IMG/VR virus record: IMGVR_UViG_3300034407_003683
Location: 1-64,000 of that record
DNA: 64,000 nucleotides
Strand: one strand, 5' to 3'
Source of the DNA: a virus
Shown here piece after piece: positions 16,544 to 53,472 of the stretch. The position numbers and the translations under genes were made by a program. Each line of letters begins with the position of its first letter. The stretch's first letter is position 1. The notes under the pieces were generated by a model. The model worked only from the letters and a program-made list of their open reading frames with translations. It did not search any database and was not told the origin of the DNA.

Positions 16544-16589
16544 TTAAAGAATTAACTTATTAACCTGCTTCATAGATGTATGCTGCACC
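16541..16589 (-). repeat. Source copy of the duplicated 3' end
   Basis: The functional 3' end (GAAYIYEAG stop) and downstream flank of the 581-residue propeller gene. It is repeated at 15027-15075 with three mismatches. Confidence 0.8.
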
Positions 16590-18305
16590 AGCATTAAATA
16601 TTGGATCACCTGATCCACCGTCTTCCTGCGGTGCACCAACAGCAGCATAGCCTCCGTCACCGCTTATTGATACTGAATGACCAAATTCATCCTGTGATTT
16701 TGGATCGGATGCAGTTAACCTTCGTGTTTGTGTCCAAGTTGTTCCGTCTCTGGTAAAGATATAAGCAGCTCCAGCATCATCTACAGAATATTGAGATCTG
16801 AGTGCTCCAACAATAGCATAAGTTGCATCAGAATTTAATGACACTGACCAACCAAATTGATCATTCGCTTCACCATCTGATGATACTATTTTAGCTTGTT
16901 GTGTCCAAGTTGAACCTGATCTACTAAAGATATAAGCTGCGCCAGCATTGAAGGCACTAGTATCTTCTTGATATGCACCAACAATAACATAATCACCATC
17001 ATCGTTTATGTTCACTGACCAACCAAATCTATCACTTGCTTGTGCATCAGAAGCAGTTAGTTTAGCCTGTTGTGTCCAAGTTGAACCTGATCTACTAAAG
17101 ATATAAGCATTGCCTGCTTGGTTATTTTTATAGTAAGCACCAATTACAGCATAACTACCATCATCGCTTATTGATACTGAATATCCAAAATTATCATATT
17201 GAGCTCTATCCGAATGTTGTATTTTAGCTTGTTGTGTCCAAGTAGAACCTGACCTAACAAAGATATATGCTGCACCTGTACCAGTTTGTCCTGTATCTTC
17301 TGAATTTGCACCAGCAATAGCATACATTCCGTCACCGCTTATGGAAACAGACCAACCAAACTGATCACTTGCTTGTGCATCTGAAGCTCTTAATATTGCT
17401 TGTTCTGTCCAAGTTGATCCGGATCTTGTATAAATATAAGCAGCTCCACCATCAGATATTGTATTTGTAGCGCCGTCTTCACGATAGGCACCCGTAATAG
17501 CATAAGTACCATCAGAACTAATATCCACCGATGAACCATTCCGATCATTATCTCCAGTATTTGAAGCTGTTAATATAGCTTGTTCTGACCATGTAGAGCC
17601 AGATCTGTTAAAGATGTATGCTTGCCCTCTGATATTGTTCTGCCCACTATGTGCACCGGCACCAACTATTATATAATTACCATCACTACTTAGTGACAGA
17701 GCATATTCGCTAAATTCATCGCCCTGAAAAGCATCAGATGCAACTAATTTACTTTCAGTAGTATTTGCCCAATCTGGACCAAACGTCAAGCTAAATTCAG
17801 TAGTGCCAGAACCAAAATTAATACCATCAGAAACTTTAAATGTGAGAGTAGATGATGTTGTAGTTGCAGAACCCTCAGCAAGTGGTGTGATAGTAAATAC
17901 ACTTGAATCTTGACTCAGTGTACCAAGTCCACCGAAACTTCCATCCGACTCTACAGAATAGATCAAATTTGCATCTGCATTATCTGAATCTGTTCCCGTG
18001 AGTGTAATTACAGTTGGTGTTGTTCCATCAGTCGCAAGGGTAATCACACCAGATGGGCTGATGGTTAAGTTTGGTGTCGCATTAAACATTGCAACATTAT
18101 ACCAACCCGAACCGTTTGACAAATATAATCTTTGATTGCTTGTTACAAATGCTTGATCGCCAAGTGTTAGATTTGATGTAGGTAAATCATCTAGAGTTGC
18201 ATATGGCGTAACTCCTGCAGATATATCATCTAGCACGGACTCTTTCAATGCAGTTGTAGAAGGAACTAAAACTTCTGCCAATAATCTATTAATTGATTTA
18301 GGCAT
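16560..18305 (-). CDS. Adhesin-like tail protein with seven FG-GAP-type repeats
   Basis: 581 residues. Residues about 35-180 carry the shared module (LPTSNLTLGDQAFV, NGSGWYNVAMFNATP, QDSSVFTITP, TLTFKVSDG). Residues about 185-581 contain seven repeats of roughly 55 residues with the pattern ASDxQxxDxFGxSVSIxxDGxYxIxGA then AAYIFxRSGSTWTQQAKL. Seven such units make a closed seven-bladed propeller like integrin-type FG-GAP proteins, a likely receptor-binding surface. The last repeat lacks its outer strand, which the segment before repeat 1 could supply. DNA repeats in this gene are near-identical (16897-16937 and 17068-17108 match exactly). It overlaps the 69-residue gene by 8 bases. Confidence 0.8.
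   Translation of the reverse strand: MPKSINRLLAEVLVPSTTALKESVLDDISAGVTPYATLDDLPTSNLTLGDQAFVTSNQRLYLSNGSGWYNVAMFNATPNLTISPSGVITLATDGTTPTVITLTGTDSDNADANLIYSVESDGSFGGLGTLSQDSSVFTITPLAEGSATTTSSTLTFKVSDGINFGSGTTEFSLTFGPDWANTTESKLVASDAFQGDEFSEYALSLSSDGNYIIVGAGAHSGQNNIRGQAYIFNRSGSTWSEQAILTASNTGDNDRNGSSVDISSDGTYAITGAYREDGATNTISDGGAAYIYTRSGSTWTEQAILRASDAQASDQFGWSVSISGDGMYAIAGANSEDTGQTGTGAAYIFVRSGSTWTQQAKIQHSDRAQYDNFGYSVSISDDGSYAVIGAYYKNNQAGNAYIFSRSGSTWTQQAKLTASDAQASDRFGWSVNINDDGDYVIVGAYQEDTSAFNAGAAYIFSRSGSTWTQQAKIVSSDGEANDQFGWSVSLNSDATYAIVGALRSQYSVDDAGAAYIFTRDGTTWTQTRRLTASDPKSQDEFGHSVSISGDGGYAAVGAPQEDGGSGDPIFNAGAAYIYEAG
16897..16937 (-). repeat. Exact 41-base repeat in propeller gene, copy 1
   Basis: Identical to 17068-17108. 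It encodes the strand AYIFSRSGSTWTQQ of adjacent propeller repeats. Identity at synonymous sites indicates recent blade duplication or gene conversion. Confidence 0.85.
17068..17108 (-). repeat. Exact 41-base repeat in propeller gene, copy 2
   Basis: Identical to 16897-16937; see copy 1. Confidence 0.85.
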
Positions 18306-18528: not shown

Positions 18529-19182
18529 TTACTGATACGCTGGCCATACTCCTATTCCCATCCATTGACTTGGTTGATTACATCCACCATTAATACCGCC
18601 CCAATTCTGATTACCGATATGAGGCCTCATAACCGGATTTCCAGGGGGATCGCAATTACAAGCAACAGAGTTATTGAAGTGCCAACTTGCAGAATTTTTT
18701 CCAGTCAAATTATATGTACTATCATTTCCACAACTGCGTCCTAAAAATGGTGCTGTGCCAGTTCCGCTACCATAAGTTCCGTTATTTATTAAAGCAGACC
18801 TATAACTTTGCACATTTGAAGTTACGGTATATGTCGGGGAACCTTTATTGGATGATGACCCAAAGTAGAAATACATTTGTTGTATAGTTGTACCTTTATT
18901 ACTTATAAAATATTTTAAGAATTCAGAATAAGCATATGCATATTGCGCGCGACCGCTGGTACCGTTTGGAAAATATTCATACCACCACATTGTTGTTCCT
19001 GCCCATTGTAAAGGACCTGGGGGAACGGCACTTTTCCCATAAAACTGATTCATAGAAATAGTGCCACTTGAAGGAATTCCATCTGCAGCACTATAATATT
19101 CATTCAATGAGATAGGATTCGAACCACCAAACTCTGTTTGGATTTGAGATAAAGAAATTGCTCCTGAAGATTGTAAAGCCAT
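18529..19182 (-). CDS. Small fibre protein with SQIQTEFGG N-terminus
   Basis: 217 residues. The N-terminus (SSGAISLSQIQTEFGG, PISLNEYYSAADGIPSSG, ISMNQFYGKS) is a widespread marine-phage fibre module with ISLSxIQxEFGG and ISMxxFYG repeats. The rest is rich in Tyr, Trp, Gly, Asn and Ser (MWWYEYFPNGTSGRAQYAYA), a composition suited to carbohydrate binding. It shares one base with the S74-type fibre gene (start within stop), so the two are coupled. Function inferred as receptor contact. Confidence 0.7.
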   Translation of the reverse strand: MALQSSGAISLSQIQTEFGGSNPISLNEYYSAADGIPSSGTISMNQFYGKSAVPPGPLQWAGTTMWWYEYFPNGTSGRAQYAYAYSEFLKYFISNKGTTIQQMYFYFGSSSNKGSPTYTVTSNVQSYRSALINNGTYGSGTGTAPFLGRSCGNDSTYNLTGKNSASWHFNNSVACNCDPPGNPVMRPHIGNQNWGGINGGCNQPSQWMGIGVWPAYQ

Positions 19183-20510
19183 TATTCACCCTTTAACTTT
19201 TTAATTTCTGCTTTCAGTTCTTCGATTTGCTTTTGTTGTTCTTTAATCGCTTCGATAAAGTATCCTGATAATCCACTATAGTTTACAGAATAATAGTCAT
19301 GTTCTTCGTGTACTAGTTCTGGTGCAACTTCAAGCATTTCTTGAGCAATGACACCAGTACCTTGTTGTCCATCTTTTTCAAATGTTACGCCACGCATCTG
19401 AGTAACTTTATCAAGACCAGAAACAGTTTCAACATTTGTCTTGAGTCGTGCATCAGAGTATGCAGTAACGTTCCCAGACATGGTCAACGTACCACTGTTC
19501 ATAGTCATATAAGTTCCGACCTGAAGATAATTGATCATACCAGTACTAGTTCTATTACCTATGATACATTGATTTGAACTTGATGTACCTGTTGGTTCTG
19601 CATCATAACCAAGAAGAATATTATAATTGCCATTCAGCTGCGTTCCAGCTGTATATCCTATAGACGTATTATATGCACCGCTTCCGAAGAAACCAGCTTG
19701 ATACCCAATACCAATATTATAGTTGTTGCTAGTATTATAACCAGCCTGATATCCAATTGATACACCGTAACTTCCGTTACTCCCAGTATATCCTGCTCTA
19801 TATCCTATGCAAATTCTATCCGCGGCTGTAAGATTATATCCAGCCTGATGTCCTATCATGATATTTCTATTTCTATTCTGTTGTTGATAACCAGCTTGAT
19901 ATCCAATAGAAATAGAATAAGTTATACCATAAGCCAAACCTGCAGCATAATTACCAATAGCAACGTTATTATTATTCGCAGTAGCACTGGCACTTTGTCC
20001 ACCGTTACTAAATTCACCAATCGCAATATTACCAGGCCCAGTTGTATTATATTGCGATGCATCTTTACCGATTGCAATATTAAGATTTCCAGATGTAATA
20101 TCATCTAGTGAATTTAATCCCATTGAGATATTATTTGCACCTGTTACACTAGTTGATATTCCAGTGCCGGCATTATAAGAATATATGTTATTACTAGCGT
20201 CATTAGAGAATGCTCCACCACCACCTGCTCTAGCAGAAATATATGCAGAATCAATCAACGTAAGGACTTCACCGGAATCAAGTGAAATAGTTCTTACATC
20301 AGAAAGTGATGTTGCAGTAGAAGTAATCAGAGAAATAGTTGATGCAGAGTCTAGACCTCCAGCAGAAGCAACTTCTGATTTTCCACCTTTACCGTCATCA
20401 ATGGCGACATTACCGCTTGATGTAATGGACTCTTCTTCGATCGCACGTTTCATAAACGTAGCAATTTGCCGCGATTTACTGAATCTTCTTGTAAATGCTT
20501 TATACGCCAT
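19182..20510 (-). CDS. Tail fibre with S74 intramolecular chaperone
   Basis: 442 residues. The middle (about 135-320) has repeats of the type NIGIGYQAGYxxxxxYN and SIGYxAG, like the YadA head / left-handed beta-roll of trimeric adhesins. The C-terminus from residue 352 (SDARLKTNVETVSGLDKV, GVIAQEM, VNYSGLSGYFIEAIKEQQ, coiled-coil end) is the peptidase S74 domain that aids trimer folding and then cuts itself off, here before S352. An IDSAYISARAG segment near residue 90 is the repeat shared with the large fibres. A TATAAATA octamer lies upstream. Confidence 0.88.
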   Translation of the reverse strand: MAYKAFTRRFSKSRQIATFMKRAIEEESITSSGNVAIDDGKGGKSEVASAGGLDSASTISLITSTATSLSDVRTISLDSGEVLTLIDSAYISARAGGGGAFSNDASNNIYSYNAGTGISTSVTGANNISMGLNSLDDITSGNLNIAIGKDASQYNTTGPGNIAIGEFSNGGQSASATANNNNVAIGNYAAGLAYGITYSISIGYQAGYQQQNRNRNIMIGHQAGYNLTAADRICIGYRAGYTGSNGSYGVSIGYQAGYNTSNNYNIGIGYQAGFFGSGAYNTSIGYTAGTQLNGNYNILLGYDAEPTGTSSSNQCIIGNRTSTGMINYLQVGTYMTMNSGTLTMSGNVTAYSDARLKTNVETVSGLDKVTQMRGVTFEKDGQQGTGVIAQEMLEVAPELVHEEHDYYSVNYSGLSGYFIEAIKEQQKQIEELKAEIKKLKGE

Positions 20511-22665: not shown

Positions 22666-24306
22666 CTAACTTCCAACATTATATGCAAACATTAAACCTG
22701 CGTTAGGAACTGTGTTACCAGGACCATCTTCACGTGGCGCCCCAACTGCTATCCAATTTCCATCTTGAGAAATGTGCGTGCTCCATTCTCCATAGTAATC
22801 ACCACTAGCAATACCAGTTGGTGTTAATGTTTTCACAAGAGTCCAAGTTCCGCCAACATCTTGATAAACATATGTGGCTTCGTCCTTAGCACTAATGGCA
22901 ATAACATCACCATTACGACTAACAGAAACTCCTCTAAAATCTCCTGCCCCAGGTTTGTTTATTTGTTGTTGTTGAGTCCAAGTTGATCCAGATCTTGTAA
23001 AAATATATACTGATGTAGATGAATTACCTGTAGCAGCCATTAAATCCCCAGCACCATTCATTGATATTTGAAGTCCAAAAAGATCGCTTGCAACTGTATC
23101 GGATCCTGAAATTGCTTGTTGTTGAGTCCAAGTAGATCCAGATCTGGTAAATGTGTATACCTTACCACCATTTTCTTCATAAGGCGCTGCAGCGGCAATT
23201 AGATCACCCGTAGAATTAATTCTTACCATAAACCCTACTTGATCACCAGCAGGAGTACCAGTAACAGTAGCAGTAATAGCCTGCTGTTGTGTCCAAGTTG
23301 ATCCTGAACGAGTAAATACAAATATATTACCAGCATCAGCACCTAAAGTATCGTCTAATCTTTTCCCTGCAACTAAATATGTTGCATCAGCATTTAAATC
23401 AACTCCAGATCCAAATCTGTCGTTCGATGCTTGATCATTATCTTGAATCTTTGCTTGTTGAGTCCAAGTGTTACCTGACCTAGTATAGACGCGGACAGAT
23501 CCTTCATAGACCCCAGTAGCGCCAGTCTCTCTTGGCACACCCACTGCAAAATAACTAAAGTCGTCTGTAGAACTCACATTGTTGTAAATGCCATAGTATG
23601 AGGCAGTGCCTGAATATAAAGTTGGTTGAATTCTTTGCACAGATGTCCAAGTGCTACCGCTACGAGTCCAATAGTGAACACCATATTCAAGACCAGCTGC
23701 TATCATTTGAGTTCCATCTGAGTTAAGTCTTATGCCATAACCTAGATTAGCAGAATTTACTAATGGATCACTAACTGCAGTTGTTTCTGTTGGTGTGCCG
23801 ACAGACCAATCAGGGCCAAATGTCAAAGTAAATGTAGAGATCTCTGACGCAATATTAACACCATCGGTTGCTTTAAATGTTAGAGTACCAGTTGATGTGG
23901 TTGCATTTGCTTCAGACTTTGGTGTGATCGTAAAGACCGAACTATCTTGTGATACAGTAGCCAATCCATTAAAGTCTGAATCAGCAACGACAGAATATGT
24001 AACAGCAAATCCTTCTGGGTCTGTAGCAAGAAGAGAGATAACAGTTGTTGTTACTCCGTCAGATGCGAGTGTATATGAAGCATCTGGACCAGTAGAGAAT
24101 GTTGGAGTTGTATTAATAATTGCAATATTATACCATCCAGCACCAGACCAAAGATACAGTCTATTTGTTGCAATCACAAATGCTTGATCACCTGCTTCAT
24201 TACCAGATAGAGGAAGATCGCCGATGACATCATAAGTAGTGGTGCCGCCTAAAATACCAACTTGATTTGCAACCTCACCTCTTATTGAACTTAAAACATT
24301 TGTCAT
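22666..24306 (-). CDS. Adhesin-like tail protein, second propeller paralogue
   Basis: 546 residues. Residues about 25-170 carry the shared module (LPLSGNEAGDQAFVIATNRL, SGAGWYNIAIIN, SQDSSVFTITPKSE, TLTFKATDG). Residues about 175-546 hold seven diverged propeller repeats ending in YTFTRSGSTWTQQQAI-type strands, related to the 581-residue protein but with more sequence drift. The final unit again keeps the fuller VAVGAPREDGPGN form. Only one base separates its stop from the next start region of the large fibre (24308). Receptor-binding role inferred. Confidence 0.78.
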   Translation of the reverse strand: MTNVLSSIRGEVANQVGILGGTTTYDVIGDLPLSGNEAGDQAFVIATNRLYLWSGAGWYNIAIINTTPTFSTGPDASYTLASDGVTTTVISLLATDPEGFAVTYSVVADSDFNGLATVSQDSSVFTITPKSEANATTSTGTLTFKATDGVNIASEISTFTLTFGPDWSVGTPTETTAVSDPLVNSANLGYGIRLNSDGTQMIAAGLEYGVHYWTRSGSTWTSVQRIQPTLYSGTASYYGIYNNVSSTDDFSYFAVGVPRETGATGVYEGSVRVYTRSGNTWTQQAKIQDNDQASNDRFGSGVDLNADATYLVAGKRLDDTLGADAGNIFVFTRSGSTWTQQQAITATVTGTPAGDQVGFMVRINSTGDLIAAAAPYEENGGKVYTFTRSGSTWTQQQAISGSDTVASDLFGLQISMNGAGDLMAATGNSSTSVYIFTRSGSTWTQQQQINKPGAGDFRGVSVSRNGDVIAISAKDEATYVYQDVGGTWTLVKTLTPTGIASGDYYGEWSTHISQDGNWIAVGAPREDGPGNTVPNAGLMFAYNVGS

Positions 24307-24307
24307 A

Positions 24308-27193
24308 TTATTTCTCTGTTAGTAACCAGCCTTGGGCTACATTATAGTATACCAACCCAATTGCTGCTCTGTTAATATCAATAATAAAGTCTGAATCAGC
24401 CGCTTGAATCTTATGCCCATTTCTTGCCACTGTAATATTATTTGTTGCAGCATTGCCAGTTGCATCAATAATTCTAATTTCATCACCAATTAATGCAAGT
24501 GAAGGTAGAGTTACAGTTTTAGCAGATGTTGTTTCAATAAAGAGTTTATCTCCCGCAACTGCTGGATAATTCGGCATTATTTGCGGCGAAGACCAAGTGT
24601 TAACTCTTCTAGTTGAAGTGCCTAAATCAAACGAATTGATTATAATATCATCATTCAAATTTGCTGCAGTAGCAAGAGTGATGGTATTACCATTCGTTGC
24701 AGTATAATCGCTATCCGTAAGAAGAATACCATTAAGGAATACTTGACTGTTTGTTATTTCGTATGCAAGATAGTTATTATTAAGATCTACACCAGAGAAT
24801 GATAATTGACCAGAATCAGCAGTATATCTAAATTGATTTAAATAAGTTCCTGGTGCAGCAAAGGTATTAATAACAACATCATCTGCAGAGTCTAGTGGAT
24901 TTGAGAATACTATGCTTGATCCATTTGTAGCAGTAAAGTCAATATCACCTCTGAGTAAAATACCATTCAAGAACACTTGAACCTGGCCATTCACATAGGT
25001 AAGTGTTGCACCACCATCATCGGCACCAGTAATAGAAGATTGCCCAGAATCAGCGGTATAGTGATAATTTGTTAATGTAGGTGTTAGGATTTGACCACGA
25101 GTATTTAAGATTGTTACTAGGTCACCAGAATCCGTTGCACTTGTAAGAGTAACGGTAGAAGATGTGGTGCTATAATCATCACTATCTTTTAGAAGAATAC
25201 CATTAAGAAATAGATTTGTAATACCTAGACTAATATCCAGAGTAAGGTTATTATCATCTGCACCACTCAGGACAGTTGTAGGCGTTGCTGTTGTATAATA
25301 ATATTTTGTTTCTATAACTGAATTTTGTGTGGCAACTCTACCGATGGTCTCAATAACACTAACAGAATATCCTGAATCAGCACCAGAAGTCAAAGTAAGA
25401 GTATTGCTGCTAAGGGAATAGTCTGCACTATCTACAAGTACGATACCATTCAAATATACTATTGAATTAGAAGGTAATACACTCAGAGTGTTACCGAATA
25501 TATCTGCACCAGTAAATACTGTTTGAGCCGCAGTTGCAGTATAGTAAAACTTGTTAATATCAAGTTCACCACGAGCATTTACGGTTTGTCTTTCTAGTAC
25601 ATAATCAGAATCAATAATAACTTTAATTGCAGCACTATCCAATAACGGCGGTGCATATTCTTGGATGGTAATTCTATCTTGTGAATCTGCAGCCTGCAAA
25701 AGTGTGATTGTAGTACCACTTGTTCTGGTATAATCATCAGAATCAATGAGTAGTGTACCATTTAAGAATACAAGAGTATTATCAAAGGCAGTATTAATAC
25801 TTAAAGTTGCGTTATTATCATCAGCACCAGTAAATACGGACTGACCTGAAGTTGCAATATATTGGTATGTTGATACCGAAATACCAGCTGAAGGATTCGC
25901 GTATGATCTTTCGCGAACATATGCAGAATCAACTAATTGAGTTATAAGAGCAGAATCTAAGTAGTGAGTCTGATGTTCCTGAACATATGCAGAATCAATA
26001 ATGCTTCTGGCAATATCTGCATTGAGATCGTTAACGATACTAATCGTGTCTGTATTTGGATCTGTCGTAATGGAAATTCCAGCACCTGCCTCAAATATCA
26101 GTATATCTGATGCACTATCTGCAACAACATTATCTTGACCGCTAACGTGAATTGTACTAAAAGCATTGCCGCCGCCGCCAGATGTTTGTCTAGCTTGGAC
26201 ATAAGCACTATCTACCGTTTCACCAATAATTGTAACAACAGTGGCAGAATCGGTACCACCTTCAGCCTGTGAAATTGTGATTGTTTTAGTTGTACCTGAT
26301 CCACTAGCAGTTACTGCAGAACCAACAAAATTCAATGTAGTTGCTGCAGTTGAGAGTGGTGTGCCTTCTTCCTGAATTGTAATTTCACCACCAGATTGTC
26401 TTGCCTGAACGTATGCACTATCAATAAGGGATAGTGTATCGGCAGAATCATAATCTGTCTTAGTGCCAATTAGAGTAACTAATGTTGCATATGCACTATC
26501 GTCATCATTAAGTGCTGCAGCAATTTCATTTAATGTGTTTAGTGTTCCAGGAGCACCATCAATGAGTGCATCAATCTGTGCCGTAACATAAGCACTATCT
26601 GTAAAATTAGATGTATTATATTTTATCTGGTTCGCTTGAATATATGTTGCATCAACGATACCAGTTACGAAAGCAGAATCAACCGAAAGATCTGTTTCAT
26701 CTAGAATAATAATATCGCCGACCATACCAGAATGTATAGTACATTGATAGACCAATGATGTTGGTGCATTCATAGGTACTGTAAATTCAACAGTACCAGA
26801 ACCACCATTGTTTGTTACACCATCACTATATGCTGAACCACCATCCGACACTCTAATTTCGAGTGGATGTGATCCAGGAACATTGGTAAATTTATATGTT
26901 TTACCACGTGTTAGATATATTTTAGGATCTGTTGCAGATGAAGGAAAACCATCACCAGTAAATATATAATTAGATCCATCACCAGAAAGTGAGAAAATAG
27001 TTTCGGCAGGTCTTCTTAGTTCAATATAAGCAGAATCAATTAATTGAGTTATAAGAGCAGAATCTAGAATATTACTTCCAGTTACTATTCCAGTACTGAT
27101 TATATTTCCAGTAACTGTTAGTGTGTTACCAAAAGTTCCTGAGTCATTGACTACTAGACCGTTTTTTACTTTAAAGTCATGATGCTGAGCCAT
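24308..27193 (-). CDS. Large tail fibre with cupredoxin-like domain
   Basis: 961 residues. Order: N-terminal MAQHHDFKVKNGLVV tag common in marine phage fibres; IDSAYIELRR repeat; cupredoxin-like domain (about 66-165); several DSAYVQARQ repeats (about 180-420); five copies of a 70-residue beta module (about 425-860) with the pattern YTADSGQ, TGADxNxxTL, VFLNGILLxDSDYT, ADSGDxVxI; and a C-terminal beta domain ending VYYNVAQGWLLTEK. The last domain (GDKLFIETTSAKTVTLP, ITVARNGHKIQ) resembles terminal folding domains of phage fibres. The promoter octamer and a start-codon hairpin precede it. Confidence 0.85.
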   Translation of the reverse strand: MAQHHDFKVKNGLVVNDSGTFGNTLTVTGNIISTGIVTGSNILDSALITQLIDSAYIELRRPAETIFSLSGDGSNYIFTGDGFPSSATDPKIYLTRGKTYKFTNVPGSHPLEIRVSDGGSAYSDGVTNNGGSGTVEFTVPMNAPTSLVYQCTIHSGMVGDIIILDETDLSVDSAFVTGIVDATYIQANQIKYNTSNFTDSAYVTAQIDALIDGAPGTLNTLNEIAAALNDDDSAYATLVTLIGTKTDYDSADTLSLIDSAYVQARQSGGEITIQEEGTPLSTAATTLNFVGSAVTASGSGTTKTITISQAEGGTDSATVVTIIGETVDSAYVQARQTSGGGGNAFSTIHVSGQDNVVADSASDILIFEAGAGISITTDPNTDTISIVNDLNADIARSIIDSAYVQEHQTHYLDSALITQLVDSAYVRERSYANPSAGISVSTYQYIATSGQSVFTGADDNNATLSINTAFDNTLVFLNGTLLIDSDDYTRTSGTTITLLQAADSQDRITIQEYAPPLLDSAAIKVIIDSDYVLERQTVNARGELDINKFYYTATAAQTVFTGADIFGNTLSVLPSNSIVYLNGIVLVDSADYSLSSNTLTLTSGADSGYSVSVIETIGRVATQNSVIETKYYYTTATPTTVLSGADDNNLTLDISLGITNLFLNGILLKDSDDYSTTSSTVTLTSATDSGDLVTILNTRGQILTPTLTNYHYTADSGQSSITGADDGGATLTYVNGQVQVFLNGILLRGDIDFTATNGSSIVFSNPLDSADDVVINTFAAPGTYLNQFRYTADSGQLSFSGVDLNNNYLAYEITNSQVFLNGILLTDSDYTATNGNTITLATAANLNDDIIINSFDLGTSTRRVNTWSSPQIMPNYPAVAGDKLFIETTSAKTVTLPSLALIGDEIRIIDATGNAATNNITVARNGHKIQAADSDFIIDINRAAIGLVYYNVAQGWLLTEK
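26699..26998 (-). other. Cupredoxin-like domain inside the fibre, with type-1 Cu ligands
   Basis: Residues 66-165 of the 961-residue fibre. Strands KIYLTRGKTYKFTNV and GTVEFTVPMNAPTSLVYQ flank the ligands His109 (in GSHPLE), Cys151, His154 and Met157 (in QCTIHSGM). The Cys-x2-His-x2-Met spacing is that of amicyanin. Copper binding is inferred from these residues. Confidence 0.7.
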
Positions 27194-33991: not shown

Positions 33992-34828
33992 TTGGAACTA
34001 AATATATTATGTACATCTAAACCGTGTGATGGTCTTTTGTATTACAGCTATGAATATTGTAGTTATCTAAATTCAATTGGAATTAAAACACAATTAATTA
34101 TAATTCCACATCCAGGATTTAATCAAGAAGATTACTTTAATTCAATTACATCAAAATATATCTCATATCAAAATGTAACATTTGATCCAGATAGATGGTC
34201 AAATACTACACTCATTATGGGTCGAAGCATGCTGACAATTGGATATCTTAACAGAAATAGATATTCCATGGAACAATTGCTCTTACTTCATTTACTTTTT
34301 AGAGATACAATTGTTGCTGTCTATTCTGAAAATCATCCAATCGAATATGAAAATGCCTTAGAGTATTTTTGTCCATACGATGTAATTGATATCTGTGACT
34401 ATGATGTATATCCAAATGGTGTTGGAGAACATTTTGAAAAGAGAATTAATTTTGACATATATAAACCTATAATCAATGATATTAAATTTAAATATCTTTT
34501 CAATGGAACCAATAAGAAATACTATACTGCAGCGCAAAATATTTTACATAAATATAAGTCACATGGAATTTTAGTATATGATCTAAGTGTCATTGATATA
34601 AACAACAATAATATTATAGTGCCTATGGATAATTTATTAGGTTCGTTTGAATCATACGTCTATACAAAAAATATATTGGATCCAGCTCCACGATTAATTC
34701 AAGAGTGTAAACACTTTAATAAAGAAATAATTATAGAAAATTCCAATCGCGGCCTAGAAGTCTATATGAATAGGAATACTTATGAAAAAAATACTACTAG
34801 TTTCTGGTTGCAGTTTTACAACAGATAA
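33992..34828 (+). CDS. Putative glycosyltransferase-like protein, first island gene
   Basis: 278 residues with a TTG start, chosen because AGGAAAAGGGG lies just upstream and no ATG fits. The N-terminal part (LNILCTSKPCDGLLYYSYEY, LNSIGIKTQLIIIPHPGF) looks like a Rossmann-type strand-helix-strand of a GT-B glycosyltransferase, and a middle segment (CPYDVIDICDYDVYPNGVGE) could border the second domain. No decisive catalytic motif is visible, so the call depends largely on context with three GT-A enzymes. It overlaps the SGNH gene by 47 bases. AT-rich, unlike the fibre genes next door. Confidence 0.45.
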   Translation: MELNILCTSKPCDGLLYYSYEYCSYLNSIGIKTQLIIIPHPGFNQEDYFNSITSKYISYQNVTFDPDRWSNTTLIMGRSMLTIGYLNRNRYSMEQLLLLHLLFRDTIVAVYSENHPIEYENALEYFCPYDVIDICDYDVYPNGVGEHFEKRINFDIYKPIINDIKFKYLFNGTNKKYYTAAQNILHKYKSHGILVYDLSVIDINNNNIIVPMDNLLGSFESYVYTKNILDPAPRLIQECKHFNKEIIIENSNRGLEVYMNRNTYEKNTTSFWLQFYNR

Positions 34829-35516
34829 TTTTAATTCGCTTTTTCACCCAGAAATATCATGCGCTTGGCCTAAATGGCCAAAATTGTTAGCAAATAAATT
34901 AGATATGGATTTAATCAATTTAGCTAATTCAGGTGCTGGTAATGAATACATATATAGTACTCTTATTGACAAAATATCTGAAATTAATCCAAAAAATATA
35001 GGGTTAACTATTGCAGCATGGTCACAATCACAGCGCTGTGACTATGAAATAAGAGATACTTCCCGATGGCTACATGAAAGAATTGACGAAAAAGGTGACA
35101 TACATTATTTTGTTAGAAAAAGTTTAAGATATTATTATAGTTTTCAATTATTATGCGAAAGACTAGATATTCCATATAAGCAAATGCAAATGATAGAATT
35201 ATTTGATGATTATCTTAATGGGTTAAAAGGGTTGCCCGGAAAAAATAATGAAAGAACTATATTATATCCAAAAAATAAATCTATATCTCGAGATAAAGTG
35301 AATGCGTCGTTTTGCACTCATTCAATATTTGACAAAATAGATGATAATATGTTTTTAGGTTGGCCAATCTTACCCGAGTTAAATGGATATAATATACAAA
35401 ACAAAGTAACAGATAACTCTAGATTAAGGCATATTTTTTCTCTTTCTGAATTAGATAGCCACCCAAATAAAAAAGGTCATGAAATGATAGCGGAATTTAT
35501 ATATGAAAATCTTTAG
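34782..35516 (+). CDS. SGNH/GDSL-type hydrolase
   Basis: 244 residues. Block I is the start, ILLVSGCSFT, with nucleophile S11. The NSGAGNEYI segment (G53/N54) serves as the oxyanion-hole Asn region. The C-terminal DSHPNKKGHEMIAEFI provides the catalytic Asp/His (D225, H227). This is a small cytoplasmic SGNH hydrolase of a type seen in marine phages; enzymes of this fold remove or transfer O-acyl groups on sugars. It lies between a GT-like gene and the carbamoyltransferase, overlapping both (47 and 14 bases). Substrate unknown; O-acyl modification of a glycan is inferred. Confidence 0.8.
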   Translation: MKKILLVSGCSFTTDNFNSLFHPEISCAWPKWPKLLANKLDMDLINLANSGAGNEYIYSTLIDKISEINPKNIGLTIAAWSQSQRCDYEIRDTSRWLHERIDEKGDIHYFVRKSLRYYYSFQLLCERLDIPYKQMQMIELFDDYLNGLKGLPGKNNERTILYPKNKSISRDKVNASFCTHSIFDKIDDNMFLGWPILPELNGYNIQNKVTDNSRLRHIFSLSELDSHPNKKGHEMIAEFIYENL

Positions 35517-36987
35517 CGCAGCTCTTAATTCACATGATCATAATACATATGATGGTGTCTTGCACAAACAAATGGAGAGATATACTCGCTTTAAGCATAA
35601 TATCCCATACCATTTTGATGCGTATGATATACATCCAGTTGAAACAAGGCAAAATAAATACGATTATACTTTAATTAATGATTTTTATAAAGAACATTTT
35701 CTTTCTCAATATAAATTATTAGCTTTTACTTTTACTACAAATGCCCTTTCTAAATTAAAAAGTCATAATATACATCAAAACTTTATAAACTTTAAACCAA
35801 AAAACATATGGGACTACTGTAAAATTGATAATCAATATTATATTGACCATCATCAATCTCATGCAACATATGCATACTTGAGTTCTGGTTATAATGAGTC
35901 TGATATATTAGCAATTGACGGTAATGGATCTAATTTTAAATGCATCTTTATTGATAAATTTGGTAATATTACAGATTTATCTAATAAATTACCTATCGGT
36001 CTAATATGGAATTTTATATCATATAATTGTGGGTTCGGTTATCTCAATGCGGGAAAGGTGATGGGGTTGGTAGCATATGGTGAATATAATAACTTACACA
36101 ATTCTCTTTTTAATATAATGGTGACTGATATGGATAATAGTAAAAGTGATTATAAAGATTATTTAAAAAATGAGAATAAATTAGATTTAGCATTTACTTT
36201 ACAAAAATTTACAATGGAACAAGTGTTCAAATATGTATTATCTCTTAAAACTTCAGATAATATATGTATAGCTGGTGGTGTTGCATATAATGGCTATATG
36301 AATGAAGAGTTTACAAAGCATTATAGAAACGTACATGTACCTCCGGCATGTGGGGATGAGGGACAATCACTTGGGGCTTATATGCACGCCGACTATATTT
36401 TAAATAATAATATCCATGTACCTGAAACATATGCTGGACAAGAGTATAAATTTGATGAAGGAGACCCAATTACACCTAGAGAAGTTGGTCAAGCAATTGC
36501 TGATGGAAAAATTATAGGATGGTTTAATGGTAAATCTGAATCAGGAAATAGAGCTTTAGGTAATCGTAGTATTCTTGCTGATCCTCGTAATGCTCATATA
36601 AAAGATATTATTAATGAAACAATAAAAGAAAGAGAAGATTTTAGACCATTTGCGCCTGCAGTATTGGAACAACACTATAAAGATTATTTTAATACAAATC
36701 AACCTAGCCCATATATGTCGCGTATTGTGCCAGTTAAATCAGATAAGATACCTGGTGTGACTCATATAGATAATACTGCTAGGATACAAACGGTAAATAG
36801 AAAACAGAACGAAAAATTTTATGATGTAATACATGGATTTTATCAAGCAACTGGAATTCCTATGGTATTGAATACAAGTTTTAACTGTAAAGAACCAATA
36901 GTTGAAACACCAGAAGATGCAATAAGAACATTTAAAAGAACTAAGTTGGATATGGTAGTGATTAATGGAAGAGCATTAAAGAAATGA
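35503..36987 (+). CDS. Carbamoyltransferase, NodU/CmcH/TobZ family
   Basis: 494 residues, a little shorter than usual for the family. These enzymes make carbamoyl-AMP from carbamoyl phosphate and ATP and move the carbamoyl group to a hydroxyl of a sugar or antibiotic. Kae1-like domain: metal ligands H116 and H120 in IDHHQSHATYAY, AIDGNGS with D139, AGKVMGLVAYG at 183-193, and the glycine loop AGGVAYNG at 257-264. C-terminal domain: GNRALGNRSILADPR at 348-362, RPFAPAVLE at 381-389, LNTSFN at 456-461 and EPIVETPEDAI at 464-474. The N-terminal hairpin is shortened but keeps ERYTRFKHN. Catalytic motifs are intact. Overlaps its neighbours by 14 and 4 bases. Confidence 0.92.
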   Translation: MKIFSAALNSHDHNTYDGVLHKQMERYTRFKHNIPYHFDAYDIHPVETRQNKYDYTLINDFYKEHFLSQYKLLAFTFTTNALSKLKSHNIHQNFINFKPKNIWDYCKIDNQYYIDHHQSHATYAYLSSGYNESDILAIDGNGSNFKCIFIDKFGNITDLSNKLPIGLIWNFISYNCGFGYLNAGKVMGLVAYGEYNNLHNSLFNIMVTDMDNSKSDYKDYLKNENKLDLAFTLQKFTMEQVFKYVLSLKTSDNICIAGGVAYNGYMNEEFTKHYRNVHVPPACGDEGQSLGAYMHADYILNNNIHVPETYAGQEYKFDEGDPITPREVGQAIADGKIIGWFNGKSESGNRALGNRSILADPRNAHIKDIINETIKEREDFRPFAPAVLEQHYKDYFNTNQPSPYMSRIVPVKSDKIPGVTHIDNTARIQTVNRKQNEKFYDVIHGFYQATGIPMVLNTSFNCKEPIVETPEDAIRTFKRTKLDMVVINGRALKK

Positions 36988-37310
36988 AATATATAAATCC
37001 ACAATGCGTAAGCTTCTCTTATAATGAAAATGGAAAAAAAATATACAAATCTCCATACGGATGGTGTAAAGGTATTGCTTACTGTACTGATGGATTTTTA
37101 TTACCATGTTGTTGGTGTGATCAAACAAATCTTTATGAAGATTTTAAAAATTTAGGTTTTTATAATGAAAATTTAAAATTAGAAAATAATGATAGTATAG
37201 AAGATATATTACTTTCAGAAACATGGAAAAATTTTATCCATGTTATATTAAGCACTCCCCATTTAGCCCCTCGAGTTTGTAAAAAGAAATGTGGTATATA
37301 TGAGGGATAA
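36984..37310 (+). CDS. Stand-alone SPASM-like iron-sulphur protein
   Basis: 108 residues with nine Cys, most arranged as in SPASM auxiliary-cluster domains: WCKGIAYCTDGFLLPCCWC (C28, C34, C42, C43, C45) and a closing CKKKC (C99, C103), with an LGFYNEN stretch between. SPASM domains hold extra 4Fe-4S clusters in radical SAM enzymes and are normally fused to the C-terminal side of the core. Here the domain is a separate gene immediately upstream of a radical SAM core, coupled by an 11-base overlap. I infer that the two proteins form one enzyme. No frameshift is needed, since each gene has its own start. Confidence 0.65.
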   Translation: MKYINPQCVSFSYNENGKKIYKSPYGWCKGIAYCTDGFLLPCCWCDQTNLYEDFKNLGFYNENLKLENNDSIEDILLSETWKNFIHVILSTPHLAPRVCKKKCGIYEG

Positions 37311-37962
37311 TGATTATTATCGATATATGCTACATCAAAAAGAAAATGCTAGCATTAATATTGATACGTCTAATAAGTGCATTCTAGAATGTCCTGGTTG
37401 CCAACGAAATGATTTAAGAAATAAAGATAAAATAAAAAATGGCAATATTATGCCTATATCTGATTTTATAAAAATTGTAGAATATTACGATAATATAAAC
37501 TTATGCGGTCAAATATCAGATCCAGTTTATTATAGACATTTTAATGAATTTTTAGATATTACAAAAGAATATCCGACTAAAACTTTTAAAATAGCCACCG
37601 CGGCTCATCAAAAAAATTTACAATGGTATAAAAATGCATTTAATAGACATAATAATAATGTTCAATGGATTTTTGGTTTAGACGGTTTACCCAATACTAG
37701 TTTTTTATATAGAATAAAACAGAATAGTCAATTAATATTTGATGCCATGATATTAGGCACAAAATTAAATAAAAAAATTTCATGGCAATTTATAGTTTTT
37801 GATTATAATAAACATCAAATTGAAGAAGCAAAAAAGATAGCAAAGGAAAATGATATAAGATTTATATTAACAATATCTGATAGAAATAGAAATAGATCAG
37901 ATAGTCCAGAAGAATATAAAAAAAAATATAAGATAAAAAATACAAAAAGAATTATAACATGA
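37300..37962 (+). CDS. Radical SAM core protein
   Basis: 220 residues from the ATG at 37300 (a GTG at 37291 would add three). The cluster motif CILECPGC (C27, C31, C34; CxxxCxxC) follows the beta strand ASINIDTSNK, the usual arrangement that binds 4Fe-4S and S-adenosylmethionine. VEYYDNINLCGQISDPVYY and WIFGLDGLPNTSF are typical later strands of the partial TIM barrel. The auxiliary cluster domain is missing and is probably supplied by the preceding SPASM-like gene. The C-terminus is very Lys/Arg rich. Substrate unknown; in this setting a sugar or a peptide is possible. Confidence 0.85.
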   Translation: MRDNDYYRYMLHQKENASINIDTSNKCILECPGCQRNDLRNKDKIKNGNIMPISDFIKIVEYYDNINLCGQISDPVYYRHFNEFLDITKEYPTKTFKIATAAHQKNLQWYKNAFNRHNNNVQWIFGLDGLPNTSFLYRIKQNSQLIFDAMILGTKLNKKISWQFIVFDYNKHQIEEAKKIAKENDIRFILTISDRNRNRSDSPEEYKKKYKIKNTKRIIT

Positions 37963-38663
37963 ATATTATATGTGTTAAATGGGGTGATAAGTTTAATCAT
38001 GAGCATGTTAATAGGCTCTATAAGATGATACTTAAAAATATAAAAGATGATTTTACATTTGTGTGTTACACAGAAAATCCAAATAATCTACACCCGGATA
38101 TTAAAACTATTCCACTTGATCTCAATTTAAATCTAGAAAATTGGTGGTGGAAACTTACACTCTTTAAACATAAAACGGATGAAGTTAATATCTTTTTTGA
38201 TCTTGATGTAGTAATTCAAAATGATATTACACATCTTAAAGATCTTTGTGTAGAAGATATGTTGTATATGATAAAAGCATATTGGAAAACATATCCTTTA
38301 ACTGAATTTGATACCAATCTAAACTCTTCTGTTATGATATGGAAAGGTGATTTATCTGATCTTTGGATTAAATTTGAAAAAGATCAAGATTATTATATGC
38401 TCAAATATAATGGTATAGATTCTTATTTAGATCATGATCAACATGATAAACTACTTTACATTCCGAAAGGTGAAGTTTATTCTAGGTTATATGGTATAGA
38501 TGAGAATAACTATTGGAAAGTTGGCACAGAATTTAAAAATTATTTCTATTCAGAAAAATATAATATATGCATTTTTAATGGTTGGCGTAGGAAAACCGAT
38601 AAGATTAATAACAAATATTTACTAGATAATAATGGATACGAAGGCTTTGAACAATATTATTGA
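37959..38663 (+). CDS. GT-A type glycosyltransferase 1
   Basis: 234 residues. The N-terminal nucleotide-sugar fold (MNIICVKWGDKF, FTFVCYTENPNNL, WWWKLTLF) leads to the metal-binding DxD in IFFDLDVVI (D81, D83). The C-terminal end has an IFNGWRRKTD segment. Length and layout suit a small cytoplasmic glycosyltransferase without membrane anchor. It overlaps the radical SAM gene by 4 bases and the methyltransferase-like gene by 32. Sugar donor and acceptor cannot be read from the sequence. Confidence 0.78.
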   Translation: MNIICVKWGDKFNHEHVNRLYKMILKNIKDDFTFVCYTENPNNLHPDIKTIPLDLNLNLENWWWKLTLFKHKTDEVNIFFDLDVVIQNDITHLKDLCVEDMLYMIKAYWKTYPLTEFDTNLNSSVMIWKGDLSDLWIKFEKDQDYYMLKYNGIDSYLDHDQHDKLLYIPKGEVYSRLYGIDENNYWKVGTEFKNYFYSEKYNICIFNGWRRKTDKINNKYLLDNNGYEGFEQYY

Positions 38664-39264
38664 TCCAATATATTGGAAAGTTTTATGGAATGCTGCTAAT
38701 GCAGGCTACGACATGAAACAAATGCTTGACAGTTTGTCTCCTAATCAAATTAAATCTAAAGTATGGTTAGTTGAAATGTTAAGTATATGTGCAATAAAAA
38801 ATCCATCTATTCAATTATATGGTGGGTGGAATGGATTTCCTCTTATTGACTTGTTAAGAGAAGAATTCAAAATTTCATTATTAGAAAATATTGATTTAGA
38901 TGAATCAGCGCTGAAGGTCTATAAAAATTTTATTAACAAAAAACAACTCAAAACTAGTGTATATAGAGCAAGACATGGAGATGCGTGTGAGCCATATAAA
39001 GTTGATAAGGAAATAGATATTGTAATTAATACTTCATCTGAACATATGCCAGATTTACCAGAACTTATAAAAAGTAAAAACTATAAAAAATCTTGTATAT
39101 TTGCGTTACAGAGTAATAATATGTTTTACGTTAAAGATCATATTAATTGTGTAAATAGTAAAGAAGAATTAGAAACAAAATCTAAATTATCTAGAATATT
39201 GTATTCTGGTACATATGTAATGCCAAATGGATATGAAAGATATATGGTAATAGGCAATGTCTAA
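38632..39264 (+). CDS. Class I SAM methyltransferase-like protein
   Basis: 210 residues. A Rossmann-type start LYGGWNGFPLIDLLRE (motif I-like, GxxG) is followed by SLLENIDLDESALKVYKNF (motif II region), then RARHGDACEP and a motif IV-like strand IDIVINTSSEHMPDLPELIK. These resemble small SAM-dependent methyltransferases with a GGW loop that occur in marine phages. It overlaps the glycosyltransferases on both sides (32 and 8 bases). No SD is obvious, so its translation probably depends on the upstream gene. Target unknown; O-methylation of a sugar is inferred. Confidence 0.65.
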   Translation: MDTKALNNIIDPIYWKVLWNAANAGYDMKQMLDSLSPNQIKSKVWLVEMLSICAIKNPSIQLYGGWNGFPLIDLLREEFKISLLENIDLDESALKVYKNFINKKQLKTSVYRARHGDACEPYKVDKEIDIVINTSSEHMPDLPELIKSKNYKKSCIFALQSNNMFYVKDHINCVNSKEELETKSKLSRILYSGTYVMPNGYERYMVIGNV

Positions 39265-40162
39265 AGTTATTTTTAGTTTATATATTGACATCCCGGAAAA
39301 TGAATTAGACGAACAGTCTGCTCATTGGGGATCAAACATATCAAAAACTCTTCATACGAAAATACAATTAAAAGATAATTATAAATGGCTTATAGAGTCT
39401 CAACAAAGATATGCCAACTATATTGGTGTTGAGTATAAACACTATACATATGATTCTGCTTATATAAAATATAAAGAATGGTTTAATTTAAATTATCCAG
39501 AGGTTACGTCATATAACATTGTTAATTTTTATAAACTTAAATTATTATATAATTTAGCAAAAGACTATGATGAAATATTATATCTAGATCTAGATGTTAT
39601 TCCAGTTTCAACCGATAACTTTTTTAAAACTTGGGATTTATCACAAGGTATTGCTATTATGAGTGGTACAGCAGAAAGTCAAAAAGATATTGAAACTGAT
39701 AATAGAGAACTTTTAAGAATTAAATATACGAATAATAGTAATAGATCGCCAATCGCAAAGTATTGGAATGCAAAAGCTATGCTTTTAGAAAAAGGATATA
39801 CATGTGAATCAACAGTATTTAATACTGGAATTGTTGGAGCATCTCAAAAATGGCTTAAAGCTTTAGACTATTTTGGTGACTTTAGAAATATAATAGATTA
39901 TATGACGCAGCTAAAAACAGATGATGGATTTTATCCAGAACAGATTCAAAGCTTATTTGGATATGATAATGAAACAATATGGGCATACAAAACACTAAGT
40001 AAAGATGTACCATGGCAAAAGCTAACACCAGATTGGCATTGTTTTATGGATAAATGGAGTTATATTCCATCAAATACTAAACTAGTTCATTGTATCAATA
40101 AAGATTTTAAGTATGTAAGAGATTGGTATGAAAAGAATAATATTCTCAATCTTTTCAAATAA
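39257..40162 (+). CDS. GT-A type glycosyltransferase 2
   Basis: 301 residues. DxD motif in DEILYLDLDVIPVS (D111, D113), preceded by helix FYKLKLLYNLAKDY. Downstream come VFNTGIVGASQKWL (acceptor-side motif) and a C-terminal KLVHCINKDFKYVRDWYEKN. The same three blocks occur in the next gene, so the two are tandem paralogues. Cytoplasmic, with no membrane segment. Overlaps neighbours by 8 and 35 bases. Probably adds one sugar each in a short glycan; identity not determined. Confidence 0.82.
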   Translation: MSKVIFSLYIDIPENELDEQSAHWGSNISKTLHTKIQLKDNYKWLIESQQRYANYIGVEYKHYTYDSAYIKYKEWFNLNYPEVTSYNIVNFYKLKLLYNLAKDYDEILYLDLDVIPVSTDNFFKTWDLSQGIAIMSGTAESQKDIETDNRELLRIKYTNNSNRSPIAKYWNAKAMLLEKGYTCESTVFNTGIVGASQKWLKALDYFGDFRNIIDYMTQLKTDDGFYPEQIQSLFGYDNETIWAYKTLSKDVPWQKLTPDWHCFMDKWSYIPSNTKLVHCINKDFKYVRDWYEKNNILNLFK

Positions 40163-40904
40163 AGTAGAGAAAAATCACCAGTCAACCGGCGATTTTAAAA
40201 TATCTCAATTTATAAAATATAAAGATTCTTTAGTTAAATCGCAAAAGGCGTATGCACAAATTTGTAATGCTGATTACGAATTATTTGAAGTATCAGAAAC
40301 GCTGTATGATAAAATTCAATTTGACAAACTTTATAAAATGGAAGAGTTAACTCAATATTATGATGAAGTTCTTTATTTTGATTTAGATGTCATTCCTAAT
40401 ACAAATGAAAGTTTTTTTAAATCTAATGATTTAAATTCCATTTGTGCATATTCATTTGAAAGAACGTTACAATCAAATGTTCTACAAAGAAAAATATCAG
40501 AAAATGATTTTGATAAAATGAATGTATTTTCAAAAGGCTGTTGTAAAAAATCTATGCTATTACTTGAAGACATAAATTCTGATTATAAAGTAATTAACAC
40601 AGGTATTATTGGAGGTAATAAATACTCTATAGATGCTTTATCATTTGATAAGCGATTAGAAAGTACCTATGATATTTACAATCAAACAATTACTGATAAT
40701 CTTTATCCTATAGAAATTTCTAGAAACTGGAGACCTAATAATGAAGTGTTTATTACATATATGATAGAAAAATACAAAGTTCCATTTATTAATATTGGTA
40801 TTCAGTGGAATTTTATAATTGACGATATATATCCAAATGTCTCAGAAGCGGGTAAATTAATACATGTAGTGCATAAGGATTTTGGTAAAATATATGACAA
40901 ATAA
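40128..40904 (+). CDS. GT-A type glycosyltransferase 3
   Basis: 258 residues. DxD motif in DEVLYFDLDVIPNT (D85, D87), helix FDKLYKMEELTQYYDE, then VINTGIIGGNKYSI and KLIHVVHKDFGKIYDK. Each block aligns with glycosyltransferase 2, but the surrounding sequence is well diverged, suggesting a different acceptor. The 35-base overlap at its start and the 11-base overlap at its end fit the tightly coupled island. Confidence 0.82.
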   Translation: MKRIIFSIFSNKVEKNHQSTGDFKISQFIKYKDSLVKSQKAYAQICNADYELFEVSETLYDKIQFDKLYKMEELTQYYDEVLYFDLDVIPNTNESFFKSNDLNSICAYSFERTLQSNVLQRKISENDFDKMNVFSKGCCKKSMLLLEDINSDYKVINTGIIGGNKYSIDALSFDKRLESTYDIYNQTITDNLYPIEISRNWRPNNEVFITYMIEKYKVPFINIGIQWNFIIDDIYPNVSEAGKLIHVVHKDFGKIYDK

Positions 40905-42102
40905 AAGAATAAAAAAACTTGAAACTATAGCAGATATCGTTTCAAAATTACCCTCTTATTGTTCTGCTGCATTTACTGAAATGTATGTAGACAATAATGG
41001 TCAATATAGATTATGCTGTCATGCTAAACCAAATCCAGTACTTAAACAATATACTAGTGATTCCATTTTACCATTTGAATATTTTTTATCAAAAGAAATG
41101 GAAAATATTCGTGACTCAATGCTTGAAGGAAAACATATCCCAGATTGTGAAAAATGTAATTTGTTGGAAAAATATGGAAAATATTCATATAGACATAAAT
41201 ACATTGCGCGAGACGGGTTTATAACAGATATACAAGAAAAAACAATTAATCTAAAATTAAGAATTTCAGGATCATTCTGTAACCTTGCATGCTATATGTG
41301 CAATCCAGTAAATTCTACTACAAAGAGAAATGAATTAAATAAAATATTTGACATTGATAATACATTAAATGTATTTACTACAGGTATGAAAAATGCTAAA
41401 AGTGTTAAACATGCGCAGTGGAATGATATTGTAACTAATATATTAGAAAATATTCACCTCATTAAAATAATTCATATGACTGGTGGGGAAACTTTACAAC
41501 TTCCTAAATATTGGGAATTTTTGGATCTTATTCCAGATAAACATGCAAAGGAATTAATACTTACACATGATACTAATTTAACAAAGATTACATATAATAA
41601 TCGCCATGTTTCAGATAATGCAAAGAGATTTAAATCATTTAATTTAAGTATTTCATGTGATCATATATTAGATAAATTATCTTGGATCAGATATCCAATT
41701 AACGTAGAAGAATTTGAGAATAATTTACAAGAAATAATATTAGATAAGAATATTAATAAAAACATTAATTGTACGGTTTCAATATTAAATATTGATGACT
41801 TATTTGAAATTAGAGACTACTATAAAAATAAATTTAAAGTTGATGTTTTATTTGAATGTATGGTTGTAAGCCCAAAAGAATTATCAATTTCTAATTTGCC
41901 AGAAAAACTTAAAGATGTATATAAAGAAAAATATAAAAATGATTTTGAATTTATATTAGCAGAGCTTAATAAACCAGCAGATCTAAAATTATTTGATAAA
42001 GGTCTAAAGTACTGTGATAAATTGTCAGCTCACCGACAATTTAATTTTAGAGTTCTATGGAAAGATTGGCTAGAAAAAGTTACGACTTATAAAGATCAAT
42101 AG
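40894..42102 (+). CDS. Radical SAM enzyme with N-terminal SPASM/twitch-like domain
   Basis: 402 residues from the ATG at 40894; a TTG at 40882 would add four. Residues about 20-92 hold a Cys-rich auxiliary-cluster domain (C23, CC at 41-42, C85 and C88 in DCEKC). The radical SAM motif follows in SFCNLACYMC (C129, C133, C136), then HMTGGETLQLP (GGE motif that contacts SAM) and later strands FNLSISCDHI and NCTVSIL. The auxiliary domain precedes the core, the same order as the split pair at 36984-37962. Last island gene; its 3' end overlaps the opposing 162-residue gene by 23 bases. Substrate unknown. Confidence 0.87.
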   Translation: MTNKRIKKLETIADIVSKLPSYCSAAFTEMYVDNNGQYRLCCHAKPNPVLKQYTSDSILPFEYFLSKEMENIRDSMLEGKHIPDCEKCNLLEKYGKYSYRHKYIARDGFITDIQEKTINLKLRISGSFCNLACYMCNPVNSTTKRNELNKIFDIDNTLNVFTTGMKNAKSVKHAQWNDIVTNILENIHLIKIIHMTGGETLQLPKYWEFLDLIPDKHAKELILTHDTNLTKITYNNRHVSDNAKRFKSFNLSISCDHILDKLSWIRYPINVEEFENNLQEIILDKNINKNINCTVSILNIDDLFEIRDYYKNKFKVDVLFECMVVSPKELSISNLPEKLKDVYKEKYKNDFEFILAELNKPADLKLFDKGLKYCDKLSAHRQFNFRVLWKDWLEKVTTYKDQ

Positions 42103-52611: not shown

Positions 52612-53472
52612 TTAAGTACTAATCTGAGCACCGAGTGCAATTCTTCTATAATAACCCACATCACTATCATAAACTCCTATACAAGGTGCACCAGAATTAC
52701 CATTGGTGACAAAGATTAGATTACCGTGAGGTGGTGAATTAGGTACTGTAGCTACAGTATAATTATTTAAATCAATGGTTGTTGCCCGAGCTTTTACATA
52801 ATCGGAATCAACAAGAGCAATAACTTCACCCGAATCCAAATTATCTGCTTGTTGGGACTGAATATATGTTGAATCAATAATTGACTTTAAATATGACGAA
52901 TCAGCTTGTGACTGAATGTAAGACGAATCAATTATTGATTTTAAATAAGATGAATCTGCCTGCAATTTAATATATGAAGAATCAATCAGAGACAATATTT
53001 CAGCTGAATCAAGTCCAGTTGTAAAGGCTTGTCTAGCCTGGACATATGCAGAGTCAATCAAAGTAATGGCATCGGCAGAATCAATTGAATTTGCTTGCAC
53101 AATAACTAAAGTGGTTGCAGAATCAAATGCAGTACCAGTGATTAATGAGATATAAGCAGAGTCAACAATAGATGTAATATCAGAAGTAAAGGCAAGAGTA
53201 CCACTGGCATCTTGAATATAAATTGTTCTATCGGCAGTAGGATCAACAGGAATCAATTTAATTTCACTGGAATCTACTGTGGTACCTTCAAATACAATAC
53301 CACCACTCTCAAAATAAACACCAGATGTTCCTAGGCCAGCAGCACTTTGAAGAATACCAACACTACCATAAAGTTCATCAAAATTCTCATTAACTTTTTG
53401 ACCTGCCGTACGCAGATCATCACCGGTACCATCATTACCGGCTGCCCCTAAAAATATACTTTGCTTTGCCAT
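52612..53472 (-). CDS. Short DSxY-repeat fibre protein
   Basis: 286 residues. The N-terminus SIFLGAAGNDGTGDDLRTAG, QKVNENFDELYGSVG is a common attachment module of phage fibres. The shaft has six DSxY units in a row (LIDSAYVQARQ, LIDSSYIKLQ, IIDSSYIQSQ, IIDSTYIQSQ, LVDSDYVKAR). The C-terminus LIFVTNGNSGAPCIGVYDSD ends in a small beta tip. Related in its repeats to the two largest fibres far to the left, although it lies among baseplate genes. Preceded by a TATAAATA octamer. Confidence 0.75.
   Translation of the reverse strand: MAKQSIFLGAAGNDGTGDDLRTAGQKVNENFDELYGSVGILQSAAGLGTSGVYFESGGIVFEGTTVDSSEIKLIPVDPTADRTIYIQDASGTLAFTSDITSIVDSAYISLITGTAFDSATTLVIVQANSIDSADAITLIDSAYVQARQAFTTGLDSAEILSLIDSSYIKLQADSSYLKSIIDSSYIQSQADSSYLKSIIDSTYIQSQQADNLDSGEVIALVDSDYVKARATTIDLNNYTVATVPNSPPHGNLIFVTNGNSGAPCIGVYDSDVGYYRRIALGAQIST

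Follow-up and report, generated by a model that had tools for sequence, protein, structure and literature searches.

Fibre gene and candidate copper site

The DNA analysed here, referred to as the window, comprises positions 1 to 64,000 of the virus record IMGVR_UViG_3300034407_003683, which has a length of 97.9 kb and carries T4-like structural genes. An open reading frame (ORF) on the minus strand (24308–27193) encodes a tail-fibre protein of 961 amino acids with DSAY-type repeats, which was assigned from the ORF and from matches to PHROG profiles. Within this protein, residues 66–165 (26699–26998, minus strand) were delimited as a cupredoxin-like module by means of an AlphaFold model and of fold and profile matches in the Protein Data Bank (PDB). 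We propose, with a probability of about 0.62, that this segment is a cupredoxin module with the intact ligand set of a type-1 (blue) copper site, namely two His, one Cys and one Met, and that it recurs in fibre and connector proteins of phages.

The predicted ligands are His109 (codon 26867–26869), which is followed by Pro110, the thiolate Cys151 (26741–26743), the second histidine His154 (26732–26734), and the axial Met157 (26723–26725). All four codons were read by translation of the minus strand, and the residues are found in 21/21 homologues from named phages. A previous reading of the window that was made from the sequence alone (the sequence-only reading) had listed the same residues, and translation of 26699–26998 places them at exactly these numbers. 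The motif CTIHSGM likewise shows the Cys-x2-His-x2-Met spacing of amicyanin to which that reading had pointed. Cys151 is the sole cysteine of the fibre protein, and no other C..H..M arrangement was found in any ORF of more than 80 amino acids across the 97.9-kb record.

Residues 14–165 of the fibre resemble the C-terminal part of PHROG 677 (profile positions 261–410, E about 1.6e-33), which represents the baseplate wedge tail-fibre connector gp9. The match is confined to these profile positions; the N-terminal segment of PHROG 677 is not matched by the fibre ORF. Residues 874–961 match phrog_31104 and other parts match tail-fibre PHROGs, in agreement with the earlier assignment of the domain to a tail fibre. 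A role at the tip of the fibre, which had also been considered, is rejected for this protein because of the N-terminal position of the domain (residues 60–165 of 961) and the architecture of its homologues, which form the end of gp9 or take varied positions in fibres.

Predicted fold

The AlphaFold (AF2) model was built from an alignment of 38 domains. For the module it has a mean predicted local distance difference test score (pLDDT) of 92 and a predicted template modelling score (pTM) of 0.84; a model of residues 1–250 is poor outside the module (pLDDT 53). Every one of the 50 PDB matches listed by Foldseek is a copper protein or closely related to one, and each has a probability of 1.00. 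They comprise plastocyanin, pseudoazurin, rusticyanin, nitrite reductase, multicopper oxidases and CuA-fold oxidase subunits, some of which are copper-free. Cupredoxin-fold proteins also account for 21 of 25 profile matches to the PDB, the E-values being weak. In the profile alignment with 1b3i, which we take to be the plastocyanin of Prochlorothrix, all four phage residues align to copper ligands.

Judged from this model, residues 66–165 are likely to form a cupredoxin-like beta-sandwich. The fold expected by the sequence-only reading is thus supported by both the confidence of the prediction and the nature of the PDB matches, and its placement of the ligands on the expected strands agrees with the model: His109 directly precedes strand 52–55, Cys151 ends strand 87–92, and His154 and Met157 lie in the loop preceding strand 99–105 (strands in model numbering; adding 59 gives residues of the fibre). 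The family profiles of amicyanin (TIGR02657) and Copper-bind (Pfam PF00127) gave no match for the domain of the window. Each of the two profiles has weak matches in 13 of the 38 relatives, with best E-values of 0.0015 and 0.0024, respectively.

Conservation of the predicted ligands

All four ligands are invariant in the 38 aligned relatives. The ligand motif served as a seed (seeds including QCTIHSGM) in the contig scan and in roughly half of the first viral scan, which are therefore biased toward the ligands; for this reason, the claim of conservation rests on three samples that were blind to them. Sample (a) originates from a viral scan that was seeded only on a pattern around GG-S/A-x-Y-S-D-G-V-T and ignored the ligands. 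It contains 69 distinct domains in which none of the four ligand columns is a gap. The combination His, Cys, His, Met (HCHM) is present in 65 of them according to the columns of the hidden Markov model (HMM), and in 67 once a one-residue alignment shift in two rows (L186 and L187) is corrected. The loop residues between the ligands are highly variable in this sample, the ligands are not. Sample (b) consists of a second domain type, for whose recruitment only the stretch between the ligands was used; HCHM occurs in 54/54 distinct sequences. Sample (c) was obtained by tblastn and comprises 21 domains from named phages, whose pairwise identity has a median of 42% and a minimum of 26%. Only eight of 100 columns are invariant here, namely Gly80, Gly97, His109, Pro110, Tyr149, Cys151, His154 and Met157. 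The chance of finding all four ligands among eight randomly invariant columns of 100 is about 2e-5, and the motif is therefore not accidental. With ratios of 67/69, 54/54 and 21/21, conservation of the four ligands extends across homologues, as the sequence-only reading had claimed, and the loss of ligands that it had named as refutation did not occur.

The two exceptions in sample (a) are L176, where the axial Met is replaced by Gln, and L199, where the ligand positions read Ser, Ser, Asp and Met. The joint loss of both His and of the Cys in L199 and the exchange of Met for Gln in L176 fit a single metal site; Gln is a known axial ligand in stellacyanin. Copy L199 (ORF starting at 905, residues 483–591) retains the Met and is otherwise intact, which makes it a good metal-free control. 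The Gln of L176 belongs to a second domain of a remote type; in L167, likewise in a second domain of this type, the axial place is taken by Lys in a truncated match. In phage S-CAM1 (L118, about 1350–1680), the sequence WYQCTAHPNM stands directly before an N-terminal half with HPFEIR; this copy is possibly a circular permutation or a shuffled copy.

Distribution of the module

About 345 phage records, nearly all of them from cyanophages, encode the module. Mostly, it constitutes the C-terminal end of the gp9 connector (PHROG 677) of T4-like cyanophages. In S-SCSM1 it lies close to the N-terminus of a long fibre that bears the annotation proximal subunit, and a relative from P-SSM2 is also listed; in P-SSM2 the module is repeated, with four matches. 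The isolated phages Syn33 and S-RIM8 carry it as well. Among close relatives, the module is about 54–90% identical, the flanks are largely unrelated, and the position varies from about residue 80 to residue 930. Because the module is conserved while its flanks and its position are not, it is, as far as sequence comparison goes, a movable building block of fibre and connector proteins in marine T4-like phages. In several lineages, its natural place would be the joint between connector and fibre and not the tip.

In many cyanophages, the gene beside gp9, which codes for a baseplate wedge subunit, contains a second, divergent cupredoxin-like domain with the signature HPM...YYxCxxHxxM (loci L103, 1825 onward; L107, L108, L109 and L115, near 1795; L202–L281). 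This is the domain type of sample (b), with its complete ligands in 54/54 distinct sequences. Related domains with intact ligands were furthermore seen in contigs of Nonlabens, marine Euryarchaeota and Gammaproteobacteria (L084, L085 and L087), in two cases as the last part of proteins about 500 amino acids long. These could be proviruses or host surface proteins.

Genomic setting

The structural genes seen in the record code for a major head protein, sheath, terminase, and gp6-like and gp8-like baseplate wedge proteins. The gp6-like protein is nearest to that of phage C48C1 (Kyanoviridae; 39.7% identity), followed by the Methylophilales phage Melnitz and the Pelagibacter phage HTVC008M. Based on these genes and relatives, the source, an uncultured virus of bacteria, would be a marine T4-like myovirus, and its host may be a heterotroph. 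Beside the gp8-like and gp6-like genes lies a gene for a gp9 homologue of 286 amino acids (52612–53472, minus strand), which was assigned by its match to PHROG 677 (residues 1–39 to profile positions 1–39, E 9.5e-12). The cupredoxin domain profile gave no match in this homologue; the module is located on the fibre instead. Neither a redox partner nor a copper gene was identified in the examined parts of the record, which speaks against electron transfer.

The fibre region contains further genes of note. Approximately nine genes on the opposite strand (33992–42102, plus strand), including one for a NodU-like carbamoyltransferase and one with a weak match to radical S-adenosylmethionine (SAM) proteins, are a possible cassette for the modification of surface glycans or small molecules. 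Two FG-GAP repeat proteins among the fibre genes (16560–18305, with seven stretches, and 22666–24306) are probably beta-propellers. The C-terminal end of the protein encoded at 19182–20510 is a Peptidase_S74 intramolecular chaperone.

Evaluation of the proposed copper site

Given its ligands and its fold, the predicted site probably binds copper. Tail proteins of hundreds of marine phages contain this domain with the four residues unchanged, which suggests that virus particles with bound copper are numerous in the sea. With respect to the sequence-only reading, fold, ligand set, spacing, location in a fibre and conservation are supported; the role at the fibre tip is not.

Several observations weigh against a copper module. 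The first His is followed by Pro110 in 21/21 domains of named phages, and not by the usual Asn or Ser. In type-1 sites, an Asn or Ser at this position, which is usual but not universal, forms a backbone N-H bond to the sulfur of the Cys. As Pro has no backbone N-H, the hydrogen bond seen in azurin and plastocyanin would be missing and the potential should be altered; the properties of the site could consequently differ from those of usual type-1 sites. The remote domain type has His-Asn in L186 and in L300, the example from L300 having been obtained with a self-composed consensus probe. The resemblance to known cupredoxins is also limited: the best profile E-value to a solved structure is a marginal 0.013, Foldseek E-values reach down to 3e-5 with modest TM-scores of about 0.4–0.6, and the domain of the window has no match in Pfam. 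Moreover, virions assemble in a cytoplasm that is poor in free copper, and the site could be taken by a metal other than copper, for instance zinc. Copper in the phage particle is predicted from ligands and fold. Finally, the non-ligand residues Tyr149, Gly97, Gly80 and Pro110 are as invariant as the ligands, so that a constraint by the fold alone also acts.

This last point would be expected for a purely structural beta-sandwich, whose ligands were inherited from a copper protein and are kept for loop packing as buried Cys, His and Met, the virion being free of metal. The ligand-less copy L199, which otherwise looks intact, is in line with such a role, and metal-free cupredoxin folds are known elsewhere. 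However, metal-free cupredoxin relatives normally lose their ligands, whereas here almost every copy retains them, across many lineages and in both domain types. In addition, a C-terminal His of the exposed type would have little packing reason to be invariant. We regard a metal-free module as unlikely. Quite improbable, in our judgement, is a metal site that is chemically active in redox sensing, in electron transfer at the host surface, or, as a copper counterpart of the published Trojan-horse hypothesis for iron in phage tails, in the use of copper to dock on a metal-uptake receptor of the host. Such activity has been proposed for the iron in T4 gp37 and for the HxH motifs of marine phage fibres (PMC11705849), and the module is part of the adhesion machinery; yet the copy in the window lies near the N-terminus of the fibre, far from the expected tip, and the record, in the parts examined, offered no redox partner or copper gene. 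A chance motif or a misread frame, to which the missing Pfam match might point, has a negligible probability and is already refuted by the open frame of 961 amino acids, the hundreds of homologues, the confident fold and the conserved ligands.

For the copper-binding module that we prefer, the following mechanism is proposed. Each chain would probably acquire one copper ion during or after lysis, and a trimeric fibre would therefore carry three. The copper would lock the Cys-His-Met loop and hence the exposed end of the sandwich, whose surface would then make a protein contact. For the copies in cyanophage gp9 and at the N-terminus of fibres, this contact would be formed where the baseplate connector meets the fibre; for copies elsewhere, it would be formed along the fibre or toward the host receptor. 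A metal-locked structure or docking is favoured over redox sensing, and since a redox partner was not identified, electron transfer is a less probable principal function.

Should the module hold copper, virus particles of a class that is widespread in the ocean would have a redox-active metal in their attachment machinery, copper chemistry would be tied to infection in a manner that mirrors the iron hypothesis for phage tails, and seawater would gain a copper ligand. It is rather doubtful that the consequences go further, with a large proportion of the virions of marine T4-like phages being copper proteins with live type-1 sites, up to several per genome and hence many per particle, with fibre attachment or adsorption governed by the state of the copper, and with the particles joining the pool of organically bound copper in the surface ocean. 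The C-terminal domain of the cyanophage connector, whose annotation derives solely from homology to T4 gp9, gains a fold and a testable function. As the isolated phages Syn33 and S-RIM8 carry the module, this function is directly testable.

Comparison with known systems

A literature search found no paper that describes a cupredoxin domain as part of a phage particle; coverage was incomplete, and this is weak evidence of novelty. The module resembles the C-terminal domain of gp9 (PHROG 677) in its whole-length homology (E about 1.6e-33) and in the same four ligands. In gp9, however, it ends a connector of about 400 amino acids, whereas in the present virus it lies in the N-terminal part of a long fibre, and the virus has a gp9 homologue of its own without the module. 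With amicyanin, plastocyanin and pseudoazurin it shares the predicted fold, the order His...Cys-x2-His-x2-Met and the C-T-x-H start of the loop. In contrast, the similarity in sequence is marginal, and the phage module contains His-Pro where these proteins contain His-Asn. Furthermore, they are periplasmic or lumenal electron carriers, whereas the phage module is part of a virion protein.

Iron-binding HxH sites in phage fibres, and a Trojan-horse hypothesis for iron in phage tails, have been described (PMC11705849). Like the HxH sites of T4 gp37 and of the Alteromonas phage R22Y, the site considered here is a metal site, albeit a predicted one, on a phage tail fibre. In the HxH sites, paired His of a needle-like tip hold the iron between chains, whereas the module is self-contained and has a Cys-containing site of the copper type. 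A cupredoxin encoded by marine T4-like phages is also known from petE, the plastocyanin gene of cyanophages (PMC2984593). A derivation of the module from petE is not supported, because the similarity to plastocyanin is at background level and the signatures differ (HP versus HN). The product of petE, an auxiliary metabolic gene, serves host photosynthesis as a free electron carrier, whereas the module is a part of the fibre.
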